Shown in pieces: positions 43,686 to 64,000 of a DNA stretch of 64,000 nucleotides. Both the position numbers and the translations under genes were made by a program. This DNA is from Janthinobacterium sp. CG3. GTDB taxonomy: Bacteria > Pseudomonadota > Gammaproteobacteria > Burkholderiales > Burkholderiaceae_D. The stretch covers positions 62,001 to 126,000 of the forward strand of contig NZ_KB467825.1 in assembly GCF_000344615.1 (NCBI RefSeq), given 5' to 3'. How positions within the stretch are numbered: the stretch's first letter is position 1; every line of letters starts with the position of its first letter. A model generated the notes under the pieces. That model did no database searches. It worked only from the letters and a program-made list of their open reading frames with translations, and was not told the origin of the DNA.

Positions 43686-44873
43686 TTAATGGCCCGGTTC
43701 TTCCTTCTCGTCCTCGGCGTCGATCTGCATGCTGAACTGGTCGGCCGCGCCTGCCGCCGCGCCGCCCGGCTCCTTGCGGTCGCCGCGCAGCTTGATCTGC
43801 AGGCGCAGGCCGTTGGCCGAGTCGGCGTTGCGGATCGCCTCGTCGTAGCCGATATAGCCCTTATTATAGAGTTCATACAGCGCCTGGTCGAAGGTGCACA
43901 TGCCCAGTTCGCGCGATTTATGCATAATTTCCTTGATCGCCTGGAAATTGCCCTTCAATACCATCTCGGCGATCGTCGGCGTGTTCAGCAAAATCTCGAT
44001 GGCCGCCTTGCGGCCCTGGCCGTCCTCGGTGCGCACCAGGCGCTGCGAGACGATGGCGCGCAGGTTCGACGACAGGTCCATCAGCAACTGCCCGCGGCGC
44101 TCCTCGGGGAAGAAGTTGATGATGCGGTCCATGGTCTGGTTGGAGTTGTTCGCGTGCAAGGTGCCCAGGCACAGGTGGCCGGTCTCGGCGAAGGCGATGG
44201 CGTGCTCCATCGTCTCGGTGTCGCGGATTTCGCCGATCAGGATCACGTCCGGCGCCTGGCGCAGCGTGTTTTTCAGCGCGTTGTGCCACGACAGCGTGTC
44301 GACGCCGACCTCGCGGTGGGTGACCAGGCAACGCTTGTTCTTGTGCACGTACTCGACCGGGTCCTCGACGGTGATGATGTGGCCGGCCGAATTGGCGTTG
44401 CGGTAGTCGATCATCGCCGCCAGCGTGGTCGACTTGCCCGAGCCGGTGCCGCCGACGACCAGCACCAGGCCGCGCTTGGTCATGATGACGTCCTTGAGCA
44501 CCTCGGGCAGCTCGAGCTTCTCGAAATTCGGTATTTCCGAGGCGATGGTGCGCACCACCATCGCGACGTTTTGTTGCTGTACGTAGACATTGACGCGGAA
44601 ACGGCAGACCTCGGGCAGCGAAATGGCGAAATTGCACTCCATTTCCTGCTCGAACTCGCGCTTTTGCTTGTCGTTCATGATGGCCAGCGCCAGCGCCCGC
44701 GTCACCTCGCCGCTCAGGCGCTGCTGGCTCAGCGGCTTCATCGCGCCCTGCGACTTGATACTGGGCGGGAAATCGGCGGAAATGAACAAGTCCGAGCCGC
44801 CCATGTGGTGCATCACCTTGAGCAGCTTGTGGATGTAGGCCAGCGCCTCTTCGGGGCCAAACGTGGATGACAT
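43686..44873 (-). CDS. PilT/PilU-family type IV pilus retraction ATPase, unlinked PilU paralogue
   Basis: Protein of 395 residues with Walker A GGTGSGKST and Walker B region LIGEIRD, the PilT fold. It lacks the AIRNLIRE motif that marks PilT and carries PTIAEMVLKGNFQAIKEIM at the equivalent place, so it belongs with PilU. A canonical pilT-pilU pair lies at 50510-52707, so this is a second PilU-like gene. An acidic tail of about 25 residues follows the domain. No pilus genes adjoin it. Confidence 0.88.
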   Translation of the reverse strand: MSSTFGPEEALAYIHKLLKVMHHMGGSDLFISADFPPSIKSQGAMKPLSQQRLSGEVTRALALAIMNDKQKREFEQEMECNFAISLPEVCRFRVNVYVQQQNVAMVVRTIASEIPNFEKLELPEVLKDVIMTKRGLVLVVGGTGSGKSTTLAAMIDYRNANSAGHIITVEDPVEYVHKNKRCLVTHREVGVDTLSWHNALKNTLRQAPDVILIGEIRDTETMEHAIAFAETGHLCLGTLHANNSNQTMDRIINFFPEERRGQLLMDLSSNLRAIVSQRLVRTEDGQGRKAAIEILLNTPTIAEMVLKGNFQAIKEIMHKSRELGMCTFDQALYELYNKGYIGYDEAIRNADSANGLRLQIKLRGDRKEPGGAAAGAADQFSMQIDAEDEKEEPGH

Positions 44874-51570: not shown

Positions 51571-52707
51571 ATGGAACGCGACCAAGCTTCAAAATTCATG
51601 TTCGACTTGCTGCGCCTGATGGTCAGCAAGCACGGTTCCGATTTGTTCATCACGGCCGGCTTTCCGCCCGCCATCAAGATCGACGGCAAGCTGACGCCGG
51701 TGTCGACCCAGGTACTGACGGCGGCCCACACCACCGACCTGGCGCGCTCGATCATGAACGACAAGCAAACCGCGTCGTTCGAGCTGAGCAAGGAGGCCAA
51801 CTTCGCCATCAGCCCGGGCGACCTGGGCCGCTTCCGCGTGTCCGCCTTCGTGCAGATGAGCTGCGTCGGCATGGTCTTGCGCACCATTACCACCGAGATC
51901 CCCAAGCTCGAAGCGCTCGGCCTGCCGGCGGTGCTGCAGGAAGTCGTCATGAGCAAGCGCGGCCTGGTCATCATGGTCGGCGCCACCGGCTCGGGCAAGT
52001 CGACCACGCTGGCGGCGATGGTCGGCTACCGCAACGAGAACAGCTACGGCCACATCATCACGATCGAGGACCCGGTCGAGTACGTGCATCCGCACAAGAA
52101 TTGCATCGTTACCCAGCGCGAGGTCGGCGTCGACACCGACGACTGGGCCACGGCGCTGAAAAACACGCTGCGCCAGGCGCCGGACGTCATCCAGATCGGC
52201 GAAATCCGCGACCGCGAAACCATGGACCACGCCATCGCCTTCGCCGAGACCGGCCACCTGTGCCTGGCCACGCTGCACGCCAACAGCGCCAACCAGGCGC
52301 TCGACCGCATCATCAATTTTTTCCCCGAGGAACGCCGCCAGCAATTGCTGATGGACCTGTCGCTGAACCTGAAGGGCATGATCTCGCAGCGCCTGATTCC
52401 GCTCAAGGAAAGCAAGGGCCGCTGCGTGGCCATCGAAATCCTGTTAAATTCACCCTTGATCTCGGACCTGATCTTCAAGGGCCAGGTGCACGAGATCAAG
52501 GAGCTGATGAAAAAATCGCGCGAACTGGGCATGCAGACTTTCGACCAGTCGCTGTTCGACCTGTTCGAAGACGACAAGATCAGTTATGAAGACGCCTTGC
52601 GCAACGCCGACTCGGTCAACGATTTGCGCCTGTCGATCAAGCTGCAAGGCAAAGCCGCCCAAACCCGCGACCTGTCGGCGGGAACGGAACACCTGGGAAT
52701 TATCTGA
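51571..52707 (+). CDS. pilU: Type IV pilus ATPase PilU
   Basis: Protein of 378 residues with Walker A GATGSGKST and Walker B region IGEIRD. It lacks the AIRNLIRE motif, which distinguishes it from PilT. It assists PilT-driven retraction. Transcribed with pilT. Its stop codon overlaps the ATG of a glutathione peroxidase gene by one base. Confidence 0.94.
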   Translation: MERDQASKFMFDLLRLMVSKHGSDLFITAGFPPAIKIDGKLTPVSTQVLTAAHTTDLARSIMNDKQTASFELSKEANFAISPGDLGRFRVSAFVQMSCVGMVLRTITTEIPKLEALGLPAVLQEVVMSKRGLVIMVGATGSGKSTTLAAMVGYRNENSYGHIITIEDPVEYVHPHKNCIVTQREVGVDTDDWATALKNTLRQAPDVIQIGEIRDRETMDHAIAFAETGHLCLATLHANSANQALDRIINFFPEERRQQLLMDLSLNLKGMISQRLIPLKESKGRCVAIEILLNSPLISDLIFKGQVHEIKELMKKSRELGMQTFDQSLFDLFEDDKISYEDALRNADSVNDLRLSIKLQGKAAQTRDLSAGTEHLGII

Positions 52708-57824: not shown

Positions 57825-59315
57825 TTAAAAACGCGGCAAATGCGCGAACTTCAACTGACCGCCGGCCACATGCATCTTGCCGAATTCGGCGCAGCGGTTC
57901 AGGGTCGGAATCGCCTTGTCCGGATTCAGCAGGTAGGCCGGGTCGAAGGCGCGCTTGAGCGCCGTGAACGCGGTGATTTCCTGCGCCGTGAACTGGACGC
58001 ACATCGAATTGATCTTTTCCATGCCGACGCCGTGCTCGCCGGTGATGGTGCCGCCGACCTCGACGCACAGCGCCAGGATCTCGGCGCCGAAGGCCTCGGC
58101 GCGCGCAAACTCGTCGGGCTGGTTGGCGTCGAACAGGATCAAGGGATGCAGGTTGCCGTCGCCGGCGTGGAACACGTTGGCGCAGCGCAGGCCGTACTTC
58201 ACCTCCATCTGGGCGATGCCGGTGAGCACCTGCGCCAGCCGCTTGCGCGGAATGGTGCCGTCCATGCAATAGTAATCGGGCGAAATGCGGCCGGCCGCCG
58301 GGAAGGCGTTCTTGCGCCCGGACCAGAACTTCAAGCGCTCGGCCTCCGAGCCGGACACCGAGATGGCGCTGGCGCCGGCGCCGCGCAGCACCGCCGTCAT
58401 GCGCGCGATCTCCTCCTCCACCTCCTCGTGCGTGCCGTCGGCCTCGCACAGCAGGATGGCGGCGGCGTCGAGGTCGTAGCCGGCCTTGACGAAGGGCTCG
58501 ACCATGCGCGCGCTGGTCTGGTCCATCATCTCCAACCCGGCCGGGATGATGCCGGCGGCGATCACGTCGGCCACCGCGTTGCCGCCGGTGACGATGTCGC
58601 CGAACGAGGCCATGATCACGCGCGCCGTCGCCGGCTTGGGGATCAGCTTGACAGTGACCTCGGTGACGATGCCGAGCATGCCTTCGGAACCGATAAACAC
58701 CGCCAGCAGGTCCAGGCCGGGCGCGTCGAGCGACTCGCCGCCCAGCACCACCACCTCGCCGTCCATCGTTACCATGCGCACGCGCAACACGTTGTGCACG
58801 GTCAGGCCGTACTTGAGGCAATGCACGCCGCCGGAATTCTCGGCGACGTTGCCGCCGATGGTGCAGGCGATCTGCGACGACGGGTCGGGCGCGTAGTACA
58901 GGCCGTGCGGCGCGGCGGCGTCGGAAATGGCCAGGTTGCGCACGCCCGGCTGCACCACCGCCGTGCGCGCGTAGGCGTCGACGCGCAGGATATGGTTCAG
59001 GCGCGCGGTCGACAGCACCACGCCGTCGGCGATCGGCAGCGCGCCGCCGGACAGGCCGGTGCCGGCGCCGCGCGGCACGATCGGCACGCCCAGCGCGCGG
59101 CACACCTTCAGCACCGCCAGCACCTGCTCCTCGTCGTCGGGCAGCGTGACCACCATCGGCAACCGCCGGTAGGCGGCCAGACCGTCGCATTCATACGGGC
59201 GCGTGTCCTCGGCATCGGCCAGCACGCAACGCTGCGGCAGCACCGCCAGCAAAGCGGCCACGACGGCTTGTTGACGGGCCGCGCTGAACGCCGCACCGGA
59301 CGGGGTACTGCTCAT
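57825..59315 (-). CDS. glcD: Glycolate oxidase subunit GlcD
   Basis: FAD-linked oxidase of 496 residues with the FAD-binding loop PRGAGTGLSGGALP near residue 83 and the C-terminal GDGNLHPLILFD and TGEHGVGMEKI of the VAO/PCMH family. Catalytic subunit of glycolate oxidase. First gene of glcDEF on the minus strand. The start at 59315 gives the usual family length. Confidence 0.93.
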   Translation of the reverse strand: MSSTPSGAAFSAARQQAVVAALLAVLPQRCVLADAEDTRPYECDGLAAYRRLPMVVTLPDDEEQVLAVLKVCRALGVPIVPRGAGTGLSGGALPIADGVVLSTARLNHILRVDAYARTAVVQPGVRNLAISDAAAPHGLYYAPDPSSQIACTIGGNVAENSGGVHCLKYGLTVHNVLRVRMVTMDGEVVVLGGESLDAPGLDLLAVFIGSEGMLGIVTEVTVKLIPKPATARVIMASFGDIVTGGNAVADVIAAGIIPAGLEMMDQTSARMVEPFVKAGYDLDAAAILLCEADGTHEEVEEEIARMTAVLRGAGASAISVSGSEAERLKFWSGRKNAFPAAGRISPDYYCMDGTIPRKRLAQVLTGIAQMEVKYGLRCANVFHAGDGNLHPLILFDANQPDEFARAEAFGAEILALCVEVGGTITGEHGVGMEKINSMCVQFTAQEITAFTALKRAFDPAYLLNPDKAIPTLNRCAEFGKMHVAGGQLKFAHLPRF

Positions 59316-59432
59316 TGGAGTGGGAAAGGCGTGGTCATGCCACGATTGTAAGCACAAACGCGGCTCACCGGAGGATTCTTCCGCAGCGGCGCGTCTAGTT
59401 CATGCCGCGCCATCAAAACCAGCGCACGGATA

Positions 59433-59825
59433 TTAGTCGCTTAACTTTTTCAGGGCCGCGCCAATCGCGCCGGGATTGAATCCCTGAATGCGCCGGTTGC
59501 CGATCAGCAGAAGCGGCACGCCGCCGCCGCCCAACTTGGCGAACTCGGACTTCGCTTGCGGCGATTGGTCGATATCGAGATCGGTAAAGGGAATGTTGTT
59601 TTCCGCGAAATGGGCGCGCGCCTTGGCGCAGAAGCCGCAGCGGGTGGTGCCATACAACACCACCTTGACGTTTTTGTCGGGGAAGTAAGCCGCGTAGTCG
59701 CCTTCGGTATAGGCCGGCTTGAGAGCGGCCGGGAGCAGAGACAAACCATAGCCGGCGCCCAGTCCCAGCGCCACGATCAAGCCATAGCCGGCCAAGGTCT
59801 TAATTCTATTCTTTAGCATTGTCAT
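59433..59825 (-). CDS. Membrane-anchored glutaredoxin-like protein
   Basis: Protein of 130 residues: an N-terminal membrane segment (about residues 11-32) and a glutaredoxin domain with the active site TTRCGFCAKAR and the later GGGVPLLLIGN (cis-Pro in GVPLL). The anchor probably places the domain outside the cytoplasm. Such proteins act as periplasmic thiol-disulfide exchangers. Starts at 59825 or 59819. Confidence 0.85.
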   Translation of the reverse strand: MTMLKNRIKTLAGYGLIVALGLGAGYGLSLLPAALKPAYTEGDYAAYFPDKNVKVVLYGTTRCGFCAKARAHFAENNIPFTDLDIDQSPQAKSEFAKLGGGGVPLLLIGNRRIQGFNPGAIGAALKKLSD

Positions 59826-60239
59826 CCGGGTCCTTAAGTCTCACGGAACTGTCGATAGCAGCCGCCTTCCAACGCTCGCGACGGCGCATAGCCACCAATT
59901 GAATCATCCAACAAAAATGCTGAATAAGCAAAATTGTTTTCCATTTAAGTAAAAGATAGCGTGATCACAATGCCAAGTCAAGCGGAATAATTGCCCGTCC
60001 CGAAGTGACAATCGGTGACATTTCCTCCGCCTGACTTCCCCGCCAGCGCGGATTTCGCAACGCTTGGCGCGTCCAGCCAAGCCCTTAAGCACGCACGCCC
60101 CTTGCAGGGAAAATATTGATTTATTTGCACGTAAACAGTGCCGGCCATAGCGCATTCCTGAGACAATAGCGTTCTATTCCGCCGCCCCCAAGTCCGGACG
60201 GGGCGGTGCGGCCTTGGATTGTATATTTTAAGAAGAACG
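59826..60239. other. Intergenic region, start of lower GC
   Basis: No gene is supported. The GC level falls from about here. It holds A/T-rich stretches (for example 59926-59960 and 60110-60130) that probably contain the promoter of the thioesterase gene. It marks the change from core chromosome to the presumed acquired locus. Confidence 0.5.
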
Positions 60240-60995
60240 ATGAAATCAGACTCTTGGTTAGGACGGGCAACCGGCCCGCGGCGAAAATTCCGATTGTTTT
60301 GCTTCGCCTACGCGGGCGGCTCGTCCAGCATATTCTCGCGCTGGCAGGACATGGTCTCCCCTGAGATAGAGATTTGCGCAATCAGACTGCCCGGTCGCGG
60401 CGCGCGCTTTAACGAAAAGCCAATCAGGTCGTTTCCCCAGTTGATTGAAGTGCTAGCCTATGTGATCAAGGACAATAGCGACCTGCCCTTCGCCTTTTTT
60501 GGCCATAGCTTAGGCGGCTTAATTGCATTCGAACTGGCACGGCATTGCCTCAGAAATAGCATCCCGCCGCCAACGATGCTATTCCTTTCCGCCTCTTCCG
60601 CGCCGCAATTACTTGACCTCAAAGAAAAATTCTCCGACCTTGCCGACGACGAGTTGATCGAAAAACTCAAAGCTTATAACGGCACTCCTATCGAAATTTT
60701 GCAAAATCGAGAGTTGATCGGACTGTTCCTGCCGCCCATCCGAGACGATTTTTCTCTTCTTGAGAGTTTTCAGTATAAACCGTTCGATAATTTTGACATC
60801 CCTATCACCGTACTAGCCGGAAAACTAGATAAAGAAGTCTCACCGGAGAAAATTTTCGGATGGGCGGAAGAGACTGCGGCGGCATGCAATTTCAACTGGT
60901 TTGAAGGAGATCACTTTTTCATCAACACCGAGAGTGAAAAAGTTCTGGAAACGTTGAATTTGGATTTAACCAGGCTACTTAAAACCTGTTACTAG
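60240..60995 (+). CDS. Type II thioesterase (GrsT-like)
   Basis: Alpha/beta hydrolase of 251 residues with the nucleophile elbow GHSLGG (Ser90), an acid in LAGKLDKEVSPE and a His in EGDHFFIN, the layout of stand-alone thioesterases that free stalled intermediates from NRPS or PKS carrier domains. The N-terminus CFAYAGGSSSIFSRW is characteristic. The neighbourhood has a free ACP and an acyl-CoA dehydrogenase, supporting a biosynthetic locus. Base composition is lower in GC than the core genes. Confidence 0.88.
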   Translation: MKSDSWLGRATGPRRKFRLFCFAYAGGSSSIFSRWQDMVSPEIEICAIRLPGRGARFNEKPIRSFPQLIEVLAYVIKDNSDLPFAFFGHSLGGLIAFELARHCLRNSIPPPTMLFLSASSAPQLLDLKEKFSDLADDELIEKLKAYNGTPIEILQNRELIGLFLPPIRDDFSLLESFQYKPFDNFDIPITVLAGKLDKEVSPEKIFGWAEETAAACNFNWFEGDHFFINTESEKVLETLNLDLTRLLKTCY

Positions 60996-61029
60996 CTCTG
61001 AAAGTCGTATCAATTCGACGGCAGCGTGC

Positions 61030-62778
61030 TCACTTCGCGGCCATCTTGAACGGCAATATGGAAATGAATTGATCAGCTGCATGCATATCTTTTAATTTGT
61101 CAAACGCATTGTCGAACAACGGCGAATCTACGGAGTAATTTTCCACTTTCAACAACCTGGCTAGTGCCAAGAGCAACCATTCGCCGCGAGAGAAATAGGC
61201 ATCCAGGATATCCCGATTGTACAGCCACATTTGCAGGCAGGATGCGGCGGCATGGCAAGAACAATATTCCTCGGCGAGTTCGAATACCACAGGCGATTTC
61301 AAACGGCCCCTATCGGATCGCACCCCCTCGTCCTGCACTCTGTTCAAGATCGACGCAAGAGCCTGGGCGATCCGGTCGGAGAAACCGAGCAGCTTATCGA
61401 CCAGTAGGCGGTTGCCGACGGATTGTTCTTTAAGAGTATGCAGAAGCTCTACGCATCGCGGCAAGCCTTGTAGCACGTCATCCTGCCCATGATTAAACAA
61501 TGCAAGCTTGGCGGCGTCGAATGCCGGCAATTCGGTCCCCAGGCAAAATACCTTGTCGAGACGGTCGGCGAGTCCCTCATTCCCCTTGCTGCCCCCACCT
61601 GAGCCACTCAACAAAAAACGCAGTTGCAAAGCGATATTTTGAAGATTGACCGCCGTGTTTCCGTCGAAAAGACTAATGATCGCACTGTCGCGCAAGGTTT
61701 TCTGGAAGATTGCCTCGTTTCCTTCCCTGAGATAATACCGCGCCCCCAACAGCGACGACAAATCATGCATCATGTTTTCAGTCGTAACGGGAACAAAATA
61801 TTTCACCACAGACGACCAGGTGCTGAACTGCTCAGGCACGATATGCAGTCCGCGAGCCGCGGCAGTCGTCACGCAGTCATTAATCAGCATGTCGAGAAAG
61901 GCATTCACCAGTTTTCTTCGCACGGCTGGAATGTCCGTTATGCTGCCTCCGTATAGAGCGCGCGAAAGGGAAAAATCGAGGGTCGTGAACAATGCCGTGT
62001 TGGCGCTGCCGAGGGCCAATGCGGCGCACATTGTCCGGGTCACCTGCAATGACTTGAGCGTCAACTCAAGCCCGGACCCGGGCATTCCAATGATTGCATC
62101 CGATGCAACAAAACAGCGATCAAACGTGATTCCGCAGATATCCGCTCCGCGGATACCGTGGGTTTTTAATTTAGGGATGTACTCGTAGTTATTTTTATCC
62201 AGTTGCTCTTTATCCAGGACAAACAAGGAAAATCCTCTAGGCCCGCCCTGCGCGGAGGTTTTTGCGTACACCACCATCGCCGCGCTACGTTGGGCGTTAT
62301 TAATCAACCATTTTTGCCCCGAGAGCAGAAAGCCGCCGTCCACGCTTACTGCGCTAACTTCACAGGCAAGGAGGTCGCTGCCGTGTTCTTTTTCAGTCAA
62401 GCCAAAGGCCACCGGACCGCCGCCCTGGACAGTTCTCGCCAGCCCCTCCTTCTGGGCTTGTGTACCGGCCAGCCAAACAGCCGCCGAACCGAGGTAAATC
62501 GCGGTGTGCGCAATCGCGGCGGTCAGATCTCGTCTGGCGACGACCTTCACTATTGCGACCAGCTCCTGAAACGAGTGCAGGCGGCCGCCAATGGCGGGGG
62601 GGATATAGTAAGAAGCCATCCCCCAAGTATTCAGCGCCTCGTATAGCGCCTCAGGAAAGCTCTCCTTTTCATCGTCAAGAAGTGCCTGACGATAAGAAAA
62701 TGGATTCTCTTCCCGTCGGGGGTCGCCCAAGTGTTTTTCAAGGTCTTCCGCCGCGCGATGTACCACGTTGTTTTCCAT
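61030..62778 (-). CDS. Long acyl-CoA dehydrogenase-family protein
   Basis: Flavoprotein of 582 residues: an ACAD fold with FGLTEKEHGSDLL (about 125-137), then a C-terminal extension of about 190 residues beyond the usual 380-390. At the place where many ACADs have the catalytic Glu in YEGT, this protein has FDGN (Asp372), a possible change of mechanism. It likely acts on an acyl chain held on a carrier protein or CoA in a biosynthetic pathway. AAGGG before the ATG at 62778. Divergent from the ACP gene. Confidence 0.85.
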   Translation of the reverse strand: MENNVVHRAAEDLEKHLGDPRREENPFSYRQALLDDEKESFPEALYEALNTWGMASYYIPPAIGGRLHSFQELVAIVKVVARRDLTAAIAHTAIYLGSAAVWLAGTQAQKEGLARTVQGGGPVAFGLTEKEHGSDLLACEVSAVSVDGGFLLSGQKWLINNAQRSAAMVVYAKTSAQGGPRGFSLFVLDKEQLDKNNYEYIPKLKTHGIRGADICGITFDRCFVASDAIIGMPGSGLELTLKSLQVTRTMCAALALGSANTALFTTLDFSLSRALYGGSITDIPAVRRKLVNAFLDMLINDCVTTAAARGLHIVPEQFSTWSSVVKYFVPVTTENMMHDLSSLLGARYYLREGNEAIFQKTLRDSAIISLFDGNTAVNLQNIALQLRFLLSGSGGGSKGNEGLADRLDKVFCLGTELPAFDAAKLALFNHGQDDVLQGLPRCVELLHTLKEQSVGNRLLVDKLLGFSDRIAQALASILNRVQDEGVRSDRGRLKSPVVFELAEEYCSCHAAASCLQMWLYNRDILDAYFSRGEWLLLALARLLKVENYSVDSPLFDNAFDKLKDMHAADQFISILPFKMAAK

Positions 62779-63114
62779 ATTTGCACCCTTGTATGGCCTT
62801 ACAGACAGCATCGACATGCGGCTTAGCACATTTTATTTCACTGTAGCAAGCATTCACTCTTTCACCGAATTGCCGCCTCGGATATGTGAGAATATTATAT
62901 AATAGTAAACAATTTCAATATGAGCAACAAGCTGATCTCCCTTCGGCGAAGCGCGCCGCCGGCCTCAGGATTTCGCTTGATCAGCGTTGTTAATTGCTAT
63001 ACCATGCATTTTTATCATTACATTAGATAGTTCAGCCCTTCGGCAGAGCTATGCCACACCCTTCGTAGCACCCGCGCTTTCACATCACATTACAAAACAT
63101 CATGGTGGAGATCT
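62779..63114. other. A/T-rich divergent control region between acyl-CoA dehydrogenase and ACP genes
   Basis: The segment near 62890-62905 (ATTATATAAT) gives a -10-like TATAAT on both strands, but no -35 with correct spacing is clear. No gene is seen. It likely controls both divergent genes. Confidence 0.5.
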
Positions 63115-63396
63115 ATGGCTGAGGTACATACCGCGCTCGCATTGGAGCATACTGTCGAATCGATTCAGTCCTGGATTGTCGAGCGCACGGCTAGCTTGCT
63201 CGGAGTGAAACCCAGCAAGATCAGCGTAAGCGACCGACTGTCCGACTTCGGCCTGGAGTCAGTTGAAGCCTTCACCCTCTCCGGCGAACTGTCCGATTTA
63301 TTGAATTTGAAACTATCCCCGACGCTGGCCTGGGATTTTTCAACCATTGCCGATTTGGCCGAGTATCTCGCCGCTGAAGAGAAAAAGAGTCGCTAA
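63115..63396 (+). CDS. Acyl carrier protein
   Basis: Protein of 93 residues with the phosphopantetheine site DFGLESVEA (Ser49) in a four-helix bundle pattern. It differs from the housekeeping AcpP (GLES and not the DSLD type), so it is a specialised carrier of a secondary pathway. GGTGGAGAT-like ribosome site before the ATG. It follows the divergent ACAD gene and precedes a membrane protein gene by 80 bases. Confidence 0.9.
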   Translation: MAEVHTALALEHTVESIQSWIVERTASLLGVKPSKISVSDRLSDFGLESVEAFTLSGELSDLLNLKLSPTLAWDFSTIADLAEYLAAEEKKSR

Positions 63397-63476
63397 CGGA
63401 CGCAATTGCCATCTATGAAGCCACCATCCGCTCCAGTGCTGGAACAGCACCTTCGCCTCCCGCCTCACGCAAATAA

Positions 63477-64000
63477 ATGATCGAAATTCTCTTGCGCAGC
63501 CGGCTGCGATGGTACGCCCTCGCTACCGGCCGCCTGTTGCTGCGACGCTGGCAGGCACTCCTGCTGACTCTCGCCGTACTTGCGCCTATGGGTGTTTCGC
63601 TGCTATCCCAGGTTAAATCGCTGGCCTTTCCGGTGCTGCTGTTAATGTCGCCGGAAGATAGCTTTGCGTGGCGCTATACATATATCTGCACCATGCAGGC
63701 GCTCGCGGTGATCTGGATAATGATGCAACGCGATCAAGTCGGCGGTGGCGAATTCATGCAGTACGCGCAGTCCCTTCCGTTGACGCGCAAGCAGCGGAGC
63801 ACGGTCGACCTGCTCATCGTGTCGACCGCAAACAGTCCCCTATTCCTCATGCCGATTGCGGCAATATGCTGGTTCTTCGTCCAGGATCAGAGCGCATTCG
63901 CATGGCTCCTGCACTGTCTGTTCATCCTGGTTTTTTTGGTGCTGATGACCATCACCCAACTTCAAGCCCTGCATCGACAATATACCGCCTGGACCGGCAT
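63477..64000 (+). CDS. Partial multi-pass membrane protein, cut by the window end
   Basis: Open reading frame of at least 174 codons without a stop before the window edge. It starts MIEILLRSRLRWYALATG and has several hydrophobic segments (about residues 25-58, 70-88, 121-165). Its charged N-terminus and paired segments resemble the permease part of ABC exporters, or the uncharacterised membrane proteins adjoining ACP genes in such loci. The assignment to a permease is tentative. Confidence 0.6.
   Translation, partial: MIEILLRSRLRWYALATGRLLLRRWQALLLTLAVLAPMGVSLLSQVKSLAFPVLLLMSPEDSFAWRYTYICTMQALAVIWIMMQRDQVGGGEFMQYAQSLPLTRKQRSTVDLLIVSTANSPLFLMPIAAICWFFVQDQSAFAWLLHCLFILVFLVLMTITQLQALHRQYTAWTG

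Follow-up and report, generated by a model that had tools for sequence, protein, structure and literature searches.

Acyl-CoA dehydrogenases (ACADs) encoded between the genes of a fatty acyl-AMP ligase (FAAL) and an acyl carrier protein (ACP) insert double bonds into lipids, with gene disruption as evidence for friulimicin LipB, and a 2021 review states, in the passages cited here, that no mechanistic studies had been reported for this ACAD family (PMC9113097). The rotihibin cluster, in the part of its description used here, contains a thioesterase, an ABC permease with its ATPase, a FAAL, two ACADs, an ACP and MbtH (PMC8552735). SolF of solanimycin carries a monooxygenase past motif A8 of an adenylation (A) domain and converts glycine to alpha-hydroxyglycine, according to excerpts of its description (PMC10204066). 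Here we analyzed a stretch of 64,000 nucleotides from Janthinobacterium sp. CG3 (assembly GCF_000344615.1), hereafter the window, at whose right end parts of these kinds meet. The window very likely ends in a horizontally acquired hybrid lipopeptide cluster of about 62 kb, built from nonribosomal peptide synthetases (NRPS) and polyketide synthases (PKS), with the window genes forming its accessory, lipo-initiation end. The host genome comprises 6.27 Mb in seven contigs; the window covers positions 62,001-126,000 of contig NZ_KB467825.1 (C2), so that a C2 coordinate equals the window coordinate plus 62,000.

The glcD-pduO insert

The insert spans about C2:121,365-184,512 (63,148 bp) between the divergent genes glcD and pduO, and only its left 4.6 kb (59,365-64,000) lies in the window, the remainder being to the right. 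BLASTN synteny with seven relatives ends on the left at C2:121,361-121,367 in five, at 121,264 in one and at 121,291 in another, and resumes on the right at C2:184,513-184,575. The glcD-pduO gap is 63,218 bp in the host, compared with 104-549 bp between divergent neighbours in all 37 other genus genomes where both genes were found, that is, the site is empty in each of them. This search covered 40 genus genomes including the host and found pduO in all 40 and glcD in 38 at the cut-offs used; the two without a glcD match, G213 and G220, are 88% and 82% complete, and the count took the best glcD match, leaving out second, weaker ones in G196, G208 and G215.

The 599-aa ACAD of the window was searched for at E<=1e-60 in samples that overlap with each other. 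It is absent from all 39 other genomes of the genus and all 194 other genomes of the family (12 of them genus members), while it is matched in 3 of 398 other genomes of the order and 6 of 368 of the class. The empty sites and the absence of the gene from relatives support a chromosomal insertion by horizontal acquisition, as read from sequence comparison. Transfer, which a sequence-only reading of the window had proposed, is therefore supported, and the region is not conserved across the family, an outcome that would have spoken against that proposal.

The same reading had set the left edge at 59,826 and had spoken of a glcDEF-glutaredoxin border. An edge near the right end of the window is real and glcD does stand to its left, but the edge lies at about 59,365 and the true border is that between glcD and pduO: synteny with relatives stops at about window position 59,364 (C2:121,364), and therefore the glutaredoxin gene (59,433-59,825, minus strand; 130 aa; PF00462, 1.5e-11) is within the insert. 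What had been called the left edge of the locus is indeed an end of it: the main operon lies on the minus strand and has its downstream end here. Of 39 relatives searched, 25 gave a glutaredoxin match, and in all 25 this glutaredoxin of the genus, 61-66% identical to the one in the host, is encoded on the other side of pduO and convergent with it; the host has a single match in its genome. Of the five genomes most similar to the host in PduO, G196 has a glutaredoxin match and G208, G215, G195 and G220 have none, with completeness as low as 83% in G208 and 82% in G220. The host copy may thus have come with the insert.

The base composition changes at the border as well. The window part of the insert (59,365-64,000) has 53.0% GC, while the mean of fifty-nine 1-kb windows left of the border is 66.7% (sd 4.7), with a minimum of 53.8%, and the minimum over 274 sliding 4.6-kb windows there is 60.2%. 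Over 4.6 kb the drop is therefore real, though a low value in one 1-kb window is seen elsewhere too. The drop reported by the sequence-only reading thus stands at this scale, with the correction that low GC is limited to the accessory genes. Composition as the sole proof of transfer was rejected, as the whole insert has 63.3% GC and only its accessory end is low.

As an insertion target, a tRNA gene was considered and rejected, since none was found in either of the two stretches holding the insert borders (L009 and L017), and no integrase was recognised among the gene models, where no search aimed at integrases was made. Left of the insert, two stretches (window 43,789-44,799 and 51,940-52,327) are paralogous, with about 67-75% DNA identity as judged through relatives, and show up as cross-matches in the synteny BLASTN.

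Gene content and predicted product

The megasynthases start at C2:134,475, 8.5 kb to the right of the window. On the extended contig, Pfam matches place NRPS modules with condensation (C), A and peptidyl carrier protein (PCP) domains and PKS modules with ketosynthase (KS), acyltransferase (AT) and ACP domains in one locus, a hybrid NRPS-PKS organization. The right flank thus holds core NRPS and PKS genes and not housekeeping genes alone, and the earlier proposal of a probable secondary-metabolite locus is borne out. From left to right, the insert begins with the glutaredoxin, thioesterase, ACAD and ACP genes and a membrane protein with an ABC ATPase, followed by an outer-membrane efflux protein, a phosphopantetheinyl transferase, a MacB-like permease and ATPase, an HlyD-like adaptor and an ABC exporter. 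Next come an NRPS with C-A-methyltransferase-PCP-thioester reductase order, then an HAD protein, a second ACAD (392 aa; C2:141,381-142,559) and a 3-hydroxyacyl-CoA dehydrogenase, and a PKS with KS-AT-ketoreductase (KR)-ACP-FkbM methyltransferase order. The HAD protein has a DLDHT motif, and from this motif and the HAD match we assume that it is FkbH-like. An NRPS carrying a luciferase-like monooxygenase (PF00296) leads into an NRPS array broken by seven gaps, after which stand a 2,575-aa protein of FAAL-ACP-KS-AT-dehydratase-KR-ACP order, a stand-alone FAAL (C2:179,752-181,563), a zinc-dehydrogenase-like protein and MbtH. Both FAALs, the stand-alone one and the N-terminal domain of the 2,575-aa protein, combine an AMP-binding match with PF23024, and they are 38-50% identical to ligases near ACAD homologues, two of which are annotated as FAAL.

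The seven gaps (100 N each) fall at C2:161,984-170,033, among A-domain repeats that are almost identical. One piece, which ends at C2:163,546, is chimeric: it opens with 26 residues that agree exactly with the FAAL domain in the 2,575-aa protein and continues as an A domain. The repetitive NRPS has probably collapsed in the assembly.

The signature residues of the A domains were read by motif, with a position scheme and code meanings that we take to apply here. DILQLGMVWK (Gly) occurs in the first A domain and in the one bearing the monooxygenase, which agree in 198 of 200 residues. DVWHISLVDK (Ser) is the code of another A domain, DLFNGALTYK (Ala-like) that of a pair without differences over 300 residues, and DATKVGEVGK (Asn/Asp-like) that of the reductase module; one further A domain is interrupted by a gap, so that its code is not fully readable. 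The flavin monooxygenase domain in the Gly-coded A domain begins past motif A8 and ends ahead of A10, the SolF-type arrangement of a Gly-coded A domain with a flavin monooxygenase between A8 and A9. This domain is commoner than the window ACAD and is found at E<=1e-50 in the host and 13 others of 392 family genomes. In stretches from four of these 13 (five contigs), neither the window ACAD nor the terminal reductase domain was matched among the best non-overlapping matches, and the idea that the same cluster occurs elsewhere was dropped for these stretches, as the exact cluster was not found in them. The five contigs (G1070:C17, G177:C27, G115:C51 and C67, and G1066:C1; L128-L136) belong to other genera of the family and carry large NRPS loci with a Gly-type luciferase-like monooxygenase at 57-70% identity; the one from G1070 also has a FAAL, a thioesterase, an ABC exporter, MbtH and a PKS of similar type.

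The predicted product of the insert is most likely a fatty-acid-tailed peptide. From the gene content and the domain order outside the gaps, we infer the following reactions, monomer order and export. A FAAL, either the stand-alone enzyme or the domain of the 2,575-aa protein, would adenylate a fatty acid and load it on a carrier, which for the stand-alone FAAL would be the free ACP of the window. The 599-aa ACAD would then desaturate the carrier-bound acyl chain, and the type II thioesterase would clear stalled or wrong acyl groups. The chain may be extended by one PKS module and then by NRPS modules for Gly, Ser, one or more residues whose modules are not fully assembled, Ala, Gly and Ala, where the flavin monooxygenase of the second Gly module would form alpha-hydroxyglycine. 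A second PKS module with the fused FkbM-type methyltransferase, fed by the FkbH/ACAD/hydroxyacyl-dehydrogenase set, and a final Asn/Asp-type module with a methyltransferase would complete the chain; the terminal reductase may release it as an aldehyde or alcohol, and MacB-HlyD-TolC-type and other ABC transporters could export it.

In the window, open reading frames and Pfam matches show that the thioesterase, long ACAD, free ACP and membrane protein named by the sequence-only reading are all present. The type II thioesterase (60,219-60,995, plus strand; PF00975, 1.4e-43) has 258 aa from a TTG start, with an ATG 21 bp downstream as a possible alternative, and a GHSLG motif at residue 95. The ACAD (61,030-62,829, minus strand; PF02770/PF00441/PF02771) and the free-standing ACP (63,115-63,396, plus strand; 93 aa; PF00550, 5.1e-13; phosphopantetheine site DFGLES at residues 44-49) diverge from a 285-bp A/T-rich spacer (62,830-63,114; 43.5% GC), a probable control region. 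The divergence about an A/T-rich region that had been reported is thus real for this pair, whereas the thioesterase and ACAD genes are convergent. Promoter-like matches, which are consensus matches only, lie on both strands of the spacer at 62,870-62,918; over 59,300-64,000 there are 8 such sites compared with 3.1 +/- 1.8 in shuffled sequences, a weak excess. The best NCBIfam match of the ACP, far under the family cut-off, is the N-terminal end of Pks13, which is a FAAL-loaded carrier. For the membrane protein (407 aa; from 63,477 on the plus strand through the window end at 64,000 to C2:126,700), a simple hydropathy scan gives about 8-10 hydrophobic segments; the protein has no Pfam match, and with the ABC ATPase behind it (C2:126,710-127,372; PF00005, 1.3e-21) it forms a probable ABC exporter pair.

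The right edge of the insert carries an element like an insertion sequence (IS; C2:183,505-184,461) with one N gap inside, a DDE transposase (PF01609 on another copy) and terminal inverted repeats, flanked on both sides by the 10-bp target duplication CCCCGACAGC. In a DNA search its right part was found at 12 places of the host genome including this one (98-100% identity) and at two more at 73-77%. As a carrier of the insert this element was rejected, since it has its own 10-bp duplication on both sides and therefore most likely jumped in alone.

The long dehydrogenase and competing explanations

The window ACAD combines the canonical fold with about 190 extra C-terminal residues. An AlphaFold2 model built with ten sequences has a mean pLDDT of 83.5, and its best structural match is 3pfd (Z 35.4, rmsd 1.7 over 368 residues), giving a standard ACAD fold over about residues 20-408; the fold search bears on residues up to about 408 and hardly on the C-terminal 190. 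In order to examine its neighbourhood, 15 stretches with homologues were collected: one from Rhizobacter (37% identity; 1 of 32 loci matched, the other 31, from metagenome-assembled genomes of Chloroflexi/Anaerolineae at 21-25%, being left out), five of 65 plasmid records, hand-picked for diversity and annotation, and all nine non-host genomes matched in the order and class searches. A clear FAAL (at least 335 bits) is present in 10 of the 15 (L042, L097, L098, L099 and L111-L116), an ACP match in nine and a thioesterase match in three (L100, L101 and L115). The ACAD stands between FAAL and ACP in 7 of the 10 loci with a FAAL, and the annotated order FAAL-ACAD-ACAD-ACP is found on a Burkholderia glumae plasmid and a Streptomyces plasmid. 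The records NZ_CP077849.1 (labelled as a plasmid, 3.66 Mb) and CAKLQH020000009.1 (labelled as an Acinetobacter phage, 128 kb) contain the same ACAD, with 34.5% identity, a sign that these plasmid and phage collections may include mislabelled chromosomal DNA.

The window has a free ACP with a phosphopantetheine serine and an ACAD of the long, FAAL-associated family. These homologue neighbourhoods and the published cassettes support a lipo-initiation role of the window genes, by analogy and short of proof.

Several observations weigh against a lipopeptide cluster acquired as one unit with such a lipo-initiation end. The accessory genes have 48-61% GC and the synthetases with the FAAL 64-67%, so the cluster may be a mosaic and not one transferred unit. 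The seven N gaps and the chimeric piece make the number and order of modules uncertain. In the PDB alignments, Asp389 of the ACAD is opposite the Glu of 3pfd and 4n5f, the catalytic Glu position of short-chain and medium-chain ACADs (SCAD/MCAD), and its activity is therefore not assured. This column holds Asp in 16 and His in 4 of 20 long ACADs (the window's and 19 homologues), three of the four with His being second genes of tandem pairs; some homologue frames extend upstream of the true start, which leaves the counted column unaffected. Moreover, 5 of the 15 homologue stretches lack a clear FAAL (37 bits only in L101; none in L100 and L117-L119), and in the three stretches with order-level homologues (L117-L119) nothing of the cluster is matched besides the ACAD and the ABC ATPase. 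The usual arrangement, an ACAD between FAAL and ACP, which is not strictly defining, is not found in the host: the FAALs are encoded at one end of the cluster and the ACAD/ACP pair at the other, and 55 kb separate the stand-alone FAAL from the ACAD.

The long ACAD and the free ACP of the window could instead serve a hydroxymalonyl- or methoxymalonyl-ACP extender pathway, in roles like those of FkbI and FkbJ, and not a lipid starter. The FkbH-like HAD protein, the short ACAD and the 3-hydroxyacyl-CoA dehydrogenase stand together as parts of a putative supply set for such units, of the FkbG-K type; the gene models examined include no free carrier other than the window ACP, and the FkbM-type methyltransferase is fused to a PKS. 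However, the 392-aa ACAD, which adjoins the HAD protein and the hydroxyacyl dehydrogenase, is a separate enzyme that keeps the catalytic Glu, and the window ACAD comes from the long family with a FAAL nearby in most of the stretches. We consider this extender role unlikely.

It is also rather improbable that the cluster was acquired but is now decaying or silent. Such a fate would fit the transposable element with its 10-bp duplication at the right edge and the NRPS array broken by seven N gaps. However, all 23 gene models tested are free of internal stops (the gapped array entering by its last 1,263 aa alone), each remaining piece of the array has an open frame, and gaps among near-identical A-domain repeats look like assembly breaks rather than mutations. 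Ordinary fatty-acid metabolism genes beside glcDEF by chance, which the occurrence of ACAD, ACP and thioesterase folds in primary metabolism and the match of the ACAD core to SCAD/MCAD-type structures might suggest, are a far-fetched explanation that the context refutes as far as tested, as the ACAD is missing from every other genus genome searched and sits in a 63-kb insert with NRPS/PKS genes, and as the homologue stretches with FAAL loci mostly have NRPS matches as well. The acquired lipopeptide cluster thus remains our preferred reading.

Comparison with known systems

Two similar loci were found through the ACAD itself. Burkholderia glumae plasmid p48s3p (NZ_CP100289.1; L097) has, like the host, Ser- and Gly-type NRPS codes, a thioester reductase, a FAAL, an ACP, an ACAD of the same family (39% identity) and a luciferase-like monooxygenase inside a Gly A domain. 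It differs in being smaller, with two ACADs, a P450 and no PKS annotated in the stretch, and in that its monooxygenase is inserted between motifs A4 and A5, whereas that of the host lies past A8. This plasmid is typed as conjugative, and the order of its locus is NRPS-reductase-FAAL-ACAD-ACAD-ACP. Rhizobacter sp. Root1221 (L042) resembles the host in its ACP-reductase fusion, FAAL, two long ACADs and luciferase-like monooxygenase; unlike in the host, the monooxygenase is stand-alone and the carrier is fused to the reductase, and the 21-kb stretch gave no match above 60 bits to condensation or PKS domains.

FAAL, long ACAD, ACP, thioester reductase and luciferase-like monooxygenase are thus shared by the host cluster and the two loci. 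It is possible, although we put it forward only tentatively, that the three are members of an undescribed lipopeptide class, in which a lipid starter made by FAAL and an Asp-type ACAD is combined with in-line alpha-hydroxyglycine and release by reduction to an aldehyde or alcohol, and whose ACADs would work on carrier-bound chains with an Asp base replacing Glu. Three loci, found through the ACAD itself, are too few to prove a class. The association ties a poorly studied ACAD family to four other parts and suggests where to seek new lipopeptides, and the insert offers a clean, testable case of a whole predicted lipopeptide pathway inserted at one defined point of the chromosome, where the relatives checked have an empty site.

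Among published clusters, those of friulimicin, laspartomycin, taromycin and malacidin (PMC9113097) and rotihibin (PMC8552735) have, in the passages cited, a FAAL, an ACAD and a free ACP in one cluster as the host does, and rotihibin also shares MbtH, a type II thioesterase and an ABC permease/ATPase pair. In contrast to these five, as far as the same passages describe them, the host has its cassette split to opposite ends, two FAALs and an NRPS-PKS line with a terminal reductase; taromycin, malacidin and rotihibin have two ACADs each, whereas the host cassette has one long ACAD. The Acinetin 505 operon (A1S_0112-0119) likewise contains a FAAL-like ligase, an ACAD, a free ACP and an NRPS, but it is an eight-gene operon with a thioesterase domain on the NRPS and no PKS named in the excerpts (PMC5376624). 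An Acinetobacter record has an ACAD of the window family (34%) between FAAL and ACP with an NRPS, and may represent this operon.

Solanimycin of Dickeya solani shares with the host the Gly A domain with a flavin monooxygenase between A8 and A9, alpha-hydroxyglycine being present in solanimycin B, and differs, in the sections used, by its trans-AT PKS, with no FAAL or ACAD named and no thioester reductase in the cluster (PMC10204066). No cluster with the same set of parts was found in the openly licensed PMC literature among the matches listed, as titles, abstract starts and passages. The cluster of Janthinobacterium sp. CG3 is uncharacterised, an unusual combination of known parts that is itself of a known general kind.

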